Assembly (NCBI GenBank): GCA_902624315.1
Contig: CACNXC010000002.1
Location: 1 to 64,000 of the forward strand
Origin: an uncultured Pelagibacteraceae bacterium
GTDB lineage: Bacteria; Pseudomonadota; Alphaproteobacteria; Pelagibacterales; Pelagibacteraceae
Length of the DNA stretch: 64,000 nt
Direction: 5' to 3'
The position numbers and the translations under genes are program-made. Positions 4,852-29,901 of the stretch are shown piece after piece; position 1 is the stretch's first letter, and each line of letters begins with the position of its first letter. The notes beneath the pieces were generated by a model, which worked only from the letters and a program-made list of their open reading frames with translations, had not been told where the DNA came from and did not search any database.

Positions 4852-5149
4852 CTATAGATAATCAACTTTTTTTATTTTACTAGTAATTTGTTTTCTTGAA
4901 TATTCAAATTTTTTTCTATGTTTGATACTTTTTTGATGAACTCTTTTTCTCCATAATCTAAATGAGGATGGTTTGAGAGATTTTCTCATTATCTTAATGA
5001 CATCCGATTCTCGGTAGCCAGTTTTTTTTTCGATATCTTCAAAAGTGATCCTATCGGCCCAGGCTGCCCAGATGACCCAATCTGGATTTTCATGATTTGG
5101 CTCAGGATTTTTGACTCGGGTAACTGGCCTGTGACCTTTTTTTTTTCAT
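4852..5149 (-). pseudogene. TIGR03643/DUF2805-like protein disrupted by a frameshift at an A10 tract
   Basis: Reverse-strand reading downstream of A10 gives KGHRPVTRVKNPEPNHENPDWVIWAAWADRITFEDIEKKTGYRESDVIKIMRKSLKPSSFRLWRKRVHQKSIKHRKKFEYSRKQITSKIKKVDYL*; the ATG at 5149 is out of frame by one base (298 nt total). Confidence 0.7.
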
Positions 5150-5190
5150 AAATCCTTTATATTTGAAAAAAATCGATAATGCATTTTTTT

Positions 5191-5269
5191 TAGGACCTGT
5201 TATAGTGTGATTTGATAGTCCTACTTAGCCATCTTTAGCTCCCGGTTTTTTAGGACTATCTTTTTTTTT
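5191..5269 (+). promoter_or_regulatory. candidate terminator/antiterminator leader (or short RNA) upstream of LysE-family gene
   Basis: GATAGTCCTA (5214-5223) pairs with TAGGACTATC (5251-5260) followed by T9; TAGGAC (5191-5196) can alternatively pair with GTCCTA (5218-5223). Confidence 0.5.
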
Positions 5270-5884
5270 ATGCTCCCCCTAGATTTTATCCTTTTTTTAC
5301 AGATCATAATTTTTCTATTCATCACACCGGGTACCCCTCGGATAGTAATTATTTCTTATTCGATGAATTATGGTGTTAAAAATTGTATTTGGACAGCGTT
5401 AGGGGATGTCACAGCGAATTTATTTCAAGCAACTTTAGTAATTTTTGTTATAGGAACTTTTTTGTCTGATAATCCAAACTTTTTAAACTTTTTTAAGTGG
5501 GTTGGAGTTATTTATTTAATGTATTTAGCTTATGATGTGTATAAATCTTCACCAAAAGATGTAAATTCAAAAACAATTAGCACCAAAAGTGTTTTTTCTT
5601 TTTATAAAGATGGTTTTTTAGTTGCTGGAACAAGCCCTAAGGCATGGTTGTTCTTTCCTTTAATATTTCCGCAGTTTATTGACTTTAGTACAAATTATAT
5701 TGTTCAATTCTTTATTTTGATAACAACCTATGTTGTTTTAGATTTTATTTCTTTGATTGGTTATGCTTTGCTAGCACAAAAATTAATTACATGGATCAAA
5801 GCAAATCCAAAAACAATTAATACAATCTCAGCGAGTGTTTTAATAATCATTGCGTTAATTATTATTGTTACACAACAATATTAA
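5270..5884 (+). CDS. LysE/RhtB-family amino acid exporter
   Basis: 204 aa membrane protein, TPGTPRIVIISYSMNYG near N-terminus. Confidence 0.85.
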   Translation: MLPLDFILFLQIIIFLFITPGTPRIVIISYSMNYGVKNCIWTALGDVTANLFQATLVIFVIGTFLSDNPNFLNFFKWVGVIYLMYLAYDVYKSSPKDVNSKTISTKSVFSFYKDGFLVAGTSPKAWLFFPLIFPQFIDFSTNYIVQFFILITTYVVLDFISLIGYALLAQKLITWIKANPKTINTISASVLIIIALIIIVTQQY

Positions 5885-28169: not shown

Positions 28170-28888
28170 AAATTGAAACTTTGATCAATTTTAAGCAAAC
28201 CTGATTTGATAAAATCTATCTTTTTTTGAAGAATAGGATCAATTTGTTTTGGTAAATTTCCATGCATTAAATGAGAAAAAACTTCTGCCATATCTTCAGA
28301 AGCAGTTGATTTTGAATATTCAGTAATAAAACCATCAGTTTTAGAATAAGTATCAAGACCTATTTTTTTTGTACAAGTAGAACATTTTGCGTAATTAAAA
28401 CTATCTGAATTAAAACTTGACCAAGTTTTTTCATTAAAAATTTCCTTAAAACTATCATTAATTATATGAAAGACTTCATGATGTAATACTCTTTCAAAAT
28501 ATTTATTATCAAATTTAATATCAACAATAAGAGTTTTCATTACATTGTCAGGTATTCCAGCAGTATTTATACCTGAAATTGATAAATTTTCACAAAGAAC
28601 AATATATTTTAAATTTATTTTTTTTAAAAAACTTTGAGAATATTTTTTTAAATTTTTTTCTATAATTTGATACTTCTGGTCTAAATCTTGTTTTGATGAT
28701 CTAAAACAATTAATATTATTATCTACCCCAATTGTAAAAGGTTGTTTAGCGTAAAGATATCTCAGACTATTAGTGGTTTTAATATTATAAATTTCAAGAT
28801 TTGGAATTTTAATCAATTGATAAATCGTATCTGCTTGTACAGAAGAAATTAAAAATAAATATAATAAAATGAACTTAAATAATTTCAT
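28166..28888 (-). CDS. secreted putative zinc metallopeptidase
   Basis: Signal peptide plus HHEVFHIIN (HExxH). Confidence 0.5.
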   Translation of the reverse strand: MKLFKFILLYLFLISSVQADTIYQLIKIPNLEIYNIKTTNSLRYLYAKQPFTIGVDNNINCFRSSKQDLDQKYQIIEKNLKKYSQSFLKKINLKYIVLCENLSISGINTAGIPDNVMKTLIVDIKFDNKYFERVLHHEVFHIINDSFKEIFNEKTWSSFNSDSFNYAKCSTCTKKIGLDTYSKTDGFITEYSKSTASEDMAEVFSHLMHGNLPKQIDPILQKKIDFIKSGLLKIDQSFNL

Positions 28889-28938
28889 AATAAGTATTAT
28901 TGAAGATATTCCAAATTGTAAGAATGTGATAGAGTTTT

Positions 28939-29901
28939 ATGATGAAAAAAAAAAGTACCAAGAAACCAATCCAACCAGTAAGTGGAACCAAAGTACCGCG
29001 ATTTGCTGGACCCTCGACTTTTGCACGATTACCAGAATTGAGAGATGTTGAATATTGTGATGTTGCAATAGTTGGTATTCCTTTTGATGCAGGCACAAGT
29101 TATAGACCAGGGGCAAGGTTTGGTCCTCAAAGCATCAGACAAGCTTCAAGACACTTAAGAACAAATTATCATCCAAGTTATGATGTAGAACCATTTAAAG
29201 TACAACAAGTTGCTGATGCTGGAGATATCACGTGTAACCCTTTTAATATTAATGAAGCGATCAAACAAATTGAAGAAGGTGCTACAGATTTACTGAAAAA
29301 AACTGGAGGCATAATTAGTTTAGGGGGTGACCATACAATTGCATTTCCTTTATTAAAAGCAGTTAACAAAATTAATAAAGGTCCAGTTGCTTTAGTTCAT
29401 TTTGATGCTCATTTAGATACATGGGATACTTATTTTGGGGCACCTTATACGCACGGAACTCCATTTAGACGTGCTAGAGAAGAGAATTTATTTTTAGATG
29501 ATGCGTCTATGCATGTAGGTATTAGAGGACCTTTATATAGTAGAGATGATATTAAAAATGATGAAAGTTTTGGATTTAAAATAATTCATTGTGATGAATT
29601 TCAAACAGAGGGAACTTATAAAATAGCTGAAAGAATTAAAAAAAGAGTTGGCGATAATCCATTATACTTATCAATTGATATAGATGTTTTAGACCCCGCT
29701 TTTGCCCCAGGAACAGGTACACCAGAAATTGCAGGAATGACTTCAAGAGAAATGGTTAATGTAATTCGCAGTTTGTCAGGAATGAATTTAATCTCAGCAG
29801 ATGTAGTTGAAGTATCCCCAGCATATGATCATGCGGAGGTAACATCTTTAGCTGCAGCAACAATTATTTATGAACTTACTAATTTGTTTGCAAAAAAATA
29901 A
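28939..29901 (+). CDS. speB: agmatinase / guanidino-acid ureohydrolase family
   Basis: GGDHTIAFP, HFDAHLDTWD, SIDIDVLDPAFAPGTGTPE. Confidence 0.88.
   Translation: MMKKKSTKKPIQPVSGTKVPRFAGPSTFARLPELRDVEYCDVAIVGIPFDAGTSYRPGARFGPQSIRQASRHLRTNYHPSYDVEPFKVQQVADAGDITCNPFNINEAIKQIEEGATDLLKKTGGIISLGGDHTIAFPLLKAVNKINKGPVALVHFDAHLDTWDTYFGAPYTHGTPFRRAREENLFLDDASMHVGIRGPLYSRDDIKNDESFGFKIIHCDEFQTEGTYKIAERIKKRVGDNPLYLSIDIDVLDPAFAPGTGTPEIAGMTSREMVNVIRSLSGMNLISADVVEVSPAYDHAEVTSLAAATIIYELTNLFAKK

Follow-up and report, generated by a model that had tools for sequence, protein, structure and literature searches.

The window, a 64,000-nt stretch of DNA from an uncultured Pelagibacteraceae bacterium, carries grxC, encoding glutaredoxin, and a DUF2805 gene (4852-5149) on the minus strand, followed on the plus strand by a gene for a LysE-family exporter (PF01810; 5270-5884), as a sequence-only reading of this DNA had described. 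Direct inspection also bore out what that reading placed between the genes: an inverted repeat in which GATAGTCCTA (5214-5223) pairs with TAGGACTATC (5251-5260), a run of nine T (5261-5269) ending at the ATG at 5270, and an upstream TAGGAC (5191-5196). From these features it had proposed both a short RNA and a terminator/antiterminator leader for lysE that senses amino acids. The first proposal is supported; the second is not. DUF2805 is a constant divergent neighbour of the element across genomes, and its reading frame is broken in the window's own genome. The run complementary to 5137-5146 has ten A after the ATG, which shifts the frame, while 156 of 186 relatives have nine. The tenth A may reflect genuine slippage, phase variation of the tract or a mistake in the assembly.

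The element is a member of Rfam family RF01814 ("rhtB sRNA"), which matches 5197-5278 on the plus strand over its full length (1-83), with 75.9 bits against a cut-off of 55. The motif was put forward as a candidate from 'Candidatus Pelagibacter ubique', adjoining rhtB/lysE, and was described as a bulged hairpin with a conserved loop and with U6-9 in about half of the copies (Meyer et al., 2009; PMC2704228). Regulator, terminator and DNA repeat were all left possible (PMC2704228). A literature search found no paper on RF01814 beyond this one, whose description is of the same element and gave no target, promoter or mechanism beyond termination, regulation or a DNA repeat. What is new here is an antisense target, covariation in trans and independence from lysE.

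RF01814 matched 229 of 397 genomes of the order, nearly always in a single copy, and true matches were confined to the window's genus (SAR11/Pelagibacter). Since seven tested genomes of the genus that have no match also lack the neighbouring DUF2805 gene, genomes of the genus without RF01814 are probably assembly gaps. We saw no element upstream of DUF2805 in other genera. A weak match in genus g5 (G317) proved to be a terminator-like hairpin without the loop and was discarded as spurious rather than taken as a homologue. Carriage by phage was also discarded, as no exact match to the core turned up in a viral contig collection.

We folded the predicted transcript (RF01814 core; 5214-5269, plus strand, 56 nt), whose 3′ end is placed from the T9 of the own genome only. 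The fold has an energy of -17.7 kcal/mol (z = -5.7; none of 200 shuffles was as good) and consists of a 10-bp outer helix (5214-5223 with 5251-5260), a 4-bp inner helix (AGCC at 5227-5230 with GGUU at 5244-5247) and a 13-nt apical loop, AUCUUUAGCUCCC (5231-5243). Pair counts agree with both helices. Among 24 distinct sequences, stem pairing was kept in 98.5% of cells, three pairs carry double-sided changes, and shifting the register of the stem partner abolished the pairing signal. In this alignment one loop base was deleted or inserted for length in rows L378 and L381, leaving the stem columns unaffected; pair counts over all 220 elements use the true sequences. Across these 220, pair 6 occurs as U-A, U.G and C-G, and pair 9 changes from U-A to A-U. 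The search for compensatory stem changes in relatives that the earlier reading had suggested thus returned such changes, together with single-sided ones that keep a pair. The latter comprise 24 cells, all G.U on the plus strand, and no A.C, a pattern better explained by an RNA read from the plus strand than by a DNA palindrome.

A conserved predicted promoter precedes the hairpin. The extended -10 (5198-5206, plus strand; TG at 5198-5199 and TATAGT at 5201-5206) lies 7 nt before it, and 218 of the 219 relatives compared have an extended -10 of the TGnTATAAT type 6-8 nt 5′ of theirs. A conserved TAATGCA-T8 block (5177-5191, plus strand) lies in the -35 zone, and anchoring the 219 relatives on the -10 gives it the consensus TAATGCATTTTTTT; a TAATGCATTTT block is conserved in this zone, and the stretch between -10 and hairpin is variable. 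Because the -10 lies 6-8 nt before the hairpin, the predicted +1 is the first hairpin base, at about 5213-5214, supporting the earlier suggestion that a short RNA would start between 5150 and 5214. No -35/-10 pair emerged from a standard promoter scan, since the -35 is not TTGACA-like. A TSS dataset has been published for HTCC7211 (PMC5069720).

These data bear on whether the inverted repeat is instead a DNA operator, that is, a protein-binding site between DUF2805 and lysE. Such an operator could account for the fixed distance to DUF2805 and the near-invariant palindromic arms, and the possibility was raised by Meyer et al. (PMC2704228). However, besides the restriction of single-sided changes to G.U on one strand, conservation extends to a strand-specific interior of about 30 nt, the promoter is positioned to transcribe the element, and the loop matches an mRNA encoded in trans (below). 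We consider an operator extremely improbable.

The proposed leader for lysE required TAGGAC (5191-5196) to pair with the 5′ arm of the hairpin in a mutually exclusive, antiterminating fold. This hexamer lies upstream of the predicted start, in the promoter spacer between -35 and -10, and is not conserved. Among 220 elements, just 1 has a stretch of 6 nt (or 5 nt) exactly complementary to the 5′ arm within the 40 nt upstream, and in the window this alternative pairing exists by chance only. Linkage to the gene that would be regulated failed as well. In 191 of 193 distinct loci a divergent DUF2805 gene precedes the element at a near-fixed distance, while lysE is downstream in 154 and missing in 37 that keep the element intact; the remaining two loci are truncated. 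Of the loci without lysE, six (L020, L040, L057, L077, L085 and L114) have a convergent gene next and an unchanged hairpin, so no gene is left there for regulation in cis. A relative from genus g6 (L326) has divergent DUF2805 and lysE without the element, indicating that the neighbourhood predates the RNA or that the g6 lineage lost it.

A cis-acting leader of any kind, whether an amino-acid-sensing terminator or a riboswitch that sequesters the Shine-Dalgarno (SD) sequence of the exporter gene, would fit the start of lysE about 10-20 nt downstream in most of the 154 loci that have it, the T7-T10 after about half of the hairpins and the AGGA within the 3′ arm. Against this stand the 37 loci that retain the element without lysE, the unconserved antiterminator arm, the g6 arrangement and the fact that the most conserved part of the element is a loop that matches a target in trans. 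A leader is therefore highly improbable. We regard lysE as a frequent but dispensable neighbour and not the main target of the sRNA, although it may receive read-through.

The T-tract that resembles a terminator in the window (5261-5269) is not conserved either. Its length in relatives ranges from 0 to 10, many having only 0-3 T, and at least seven T follow the hairpin in 88 of the 156 loci counted with lysE and in 10 of the 37 without. Thus, the 3′ end of the RNA is not uniformly an intrinsic terminator. The reading that we favor does not account for the 3′ end in the many relatives that have no U-tract, and this counts against it.

Rearrangements were seen around the element. In L045 (G192) the sRNA gene is relocated, with no DUF2805 upstream, and grxC, in the same orientation, follows it directly. 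In the G235/G229 clade (L294, L296, L367, L380 and others) an insertion places about 570 nt between grxC and DUF2805; despite it, the spacing between DUF2805 and the sRNA is unchanged.

Since the loop is near-invariant across elements, we suspected that it has a partner to pair with. Its reverse complement, CGGGAGCTAAAGATGGCTAAG, has the form of an SD, a spacer, ATG and codons. In the window's own genome there is a single further near-match (18 of 19; G000:C6:28877-28895, minus strand), and there an ORF without annotation, MPKRRKKAKKAKKKAKKKAKKRRRR, has its SD and start codon. The chance expectation for such matches in the whole genome is about 3e-4, by hand calculation from base composition. 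The loop flanks, CUUAGCC and GGUUUUU, extend the complementarity to the target start region (AAAAGGGAGCUAAAGAUG-SCU-AAG), with the 5′ arm of the inner helix antisense to codon 2. The target site recurs across the genus, with at least two sites in all 20 listed element-bearing genomes of the genus (at least 97% complete).

The target gene (locus L263, G000:C6 about 28750-28990, minus strand) is unannotated and conserved. Across 69 recovered loci, the predicted peptides are 21-35 residues long, carry a net charge of about +19, with a range of +17 to +24, and consist almost only of Lys, Arg and Ala. Gene length varies by whole codons, the product is always Lys/Arg-rich, and the synteny is fixed, with an acyl-CoA synthetase gene upstream and carD convergent. 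A TTGACAT promoter precedes the gene, its 5′ UTR contains a CGAATC/GATTCG hairpin, and its end is terminator-like. On this sequence comparison the ORF is coding. An attenuation leader was ruled out by the terminator-like T-run that belongs to the ORF itself and by the convergent orientation of carD, the next gene, in every one of the 69 loci. The peptide had no match in Pfam or NCBIfam, including the profiles of the histone H1-like proteins Hc1 and Hc2, and Rfam had no match at the target locus. By composition alone, the peptide may be a histone-H1- or protamine-like nucleic-acid-binding factor. A micropeptide gene with the same synteny is also present in genus g6, for which the search detected no RNA.

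We compared the loop and its target across genomes. Immediately 5′ of the target AUG, 72 genomes have G, each with C in its loop, and 7 have A, each with U; mixed combinations are absent. A C opposite A at this position would cost about 6 kcal/mol. On an RpoB tree, used in place of a tree of the DUF2805-grxC region that was unreliable owing to an insertion in one clade, the U/A genomes fall into two strongly supported clades. Two origins are needed in 96% of bootstrap trees; a single origin is not rejected (AU p = 0.217). The covariation therefore reflects one or two coordinated changes, not many, and may be a single event. The target spacer hardly varies within the genus that carries the RNA, whereas it takes several forms in g6 (GAGATAAAG, GAGATAACG and GAGATAATG). 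Conservation from SD to AUG would in part exist without any sRNA. The element thus combines two marks of a trans-acting antisense RNA, conserved complementarity to a ribosome-binding site encoded elsewhere and compensatory changes in sRNA and target.

The predicted pairing is also specific. In the complete genome G003, the target was the best non-self site in a duplex scan of both strands (-34.8 kcal/mol, next -31.6). It was likewise the best non-self site among 1179 start sites with an SD (-34.8 kcal/mol, next -28.2), where the mean was -12.2 and the standard deviation 4.2. For the window's genome, the duplex of sRNA and target is predicted at -33.2 kcal/mol, with bases 18-30 of the RNA (the loop) unpaired with a probability of at least 0.98, and folding the two together is more favorable by 15 kcal/mol than folding each by itself. 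Within its own mRNA the target SD is predicted to be partly paired, which counts against our preferred reading. Also against it, genomes with Pro at codon 2, including the window's, have a C-C mismatch inside the duplex, and a clade with CTAGCC has another mismatch.

Since the loop is antisense to the start signal of the peptide, its most likely role is to shut off the peptide, not to control the exporter. We propose, with a probability of about 0.83, that the element encodes an Hfq-independent, trans-acting antisense sRNA with its own promoter that represses a histone-H1-like micropeptide. In this model, the sRNA gene would be transcribed into an RNA of about 50-60 nt with one hairpin, and the target would be a separate, monocistronic mRNA. 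The loop would first kiss the SD-AUG region of this mRNA, and pairing would then extend to the inner helix and to the U-rich flank. This would keep the 30S subunit from binding, and no peptide would be made. The loop and target would pair without Hfq, a protein (PF17209) that was absent from the own genome, with none of 15 near-complete relatives over the family cut-off.

An antisense RNA over the SD and AUG of a tiny, strongly charged peptide, retained as a pair across the genus, could also be the antitoxin of a type I toxin-antitoxin-like system in which the cationic peptide is harmful. The element shares with type I antitoxin RNAs its position at the translation start of a tiny peptide, but differs in that the two loci are unlinked and the peptide is ultrabasic, not hydrophobic. 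In addition, each locus is kept genus-wide as one chromosomal copy, and the peptide gene occurs with the same synteny in another genus without a detected RNA partner. We therefore think a toxin-antitoxin pair unlikely.

A closer functional likeness is to chlamydial IhtA, an Hfq-independent trans-acting sRNA whose hairpin loop 1 covers the AUG (CAUGGCG) of hctA, the mRNA of a histone-H1-like basic protein (PMC4355289, PMC3469542). IhtA has 107 nt, three stem-loops and a 7-nt pairing without the SD (PMC4355289, PMC3469542), whereas the SAR11 RNA is one hairpin of about 47 nt whose predicted pairing spans about 20-26 nt, the SD included, and its target encodes, unlike hctA, a peptide of only about 25 aa. 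SAR11 and Chlamydia are unrelated, Hfq-less and genome-reduced. Tentatively, and with the odds somewhat against it, they may have independently evolved a hairpin RNA with its loop over the start codon of a histone-H1-like gene as a switch for nucleoid compaction. If so, one of the ocean's most abundant bacterial groups would control compaction of its nucleoid through RNA.

RF01814 has been without a function since 2009, though most sampled genomes of the genus carry it, and a new partner points to its likely function. With one target that can be tested, the family becomes a concrete circuit of regulation in bacteria that are abundant in the ocean, have few regulators and have no detectable Hfq. 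The search also reveals an unannotated, conserved and ultrabasic micropeptide gene, with candidate roles at the nucleoid, the ribosome or elsewhere.

It is established for sRNAs that pairing over both SD and AUG blocks initiation. The same base-pairing evidence could be read the other way, with the sRNA activating or stabilizing the peptide mRNA, or with the mRNA titrating the RNA from other targets. The finding of a weaker match to the loop at a second start site in one complete genome would fit such a reading, but as the pairing covers the SD and AUG themselves, we judge activation or titration very unlikely and retain repression of the peptide. The weaker match (-27.9 kcal/mol) lies on the minus strand of G003 at about 426450, at the start of a longer gene beginning MAKKKKKKNGKLK (MAKKKKKK), which could be a minor second target.
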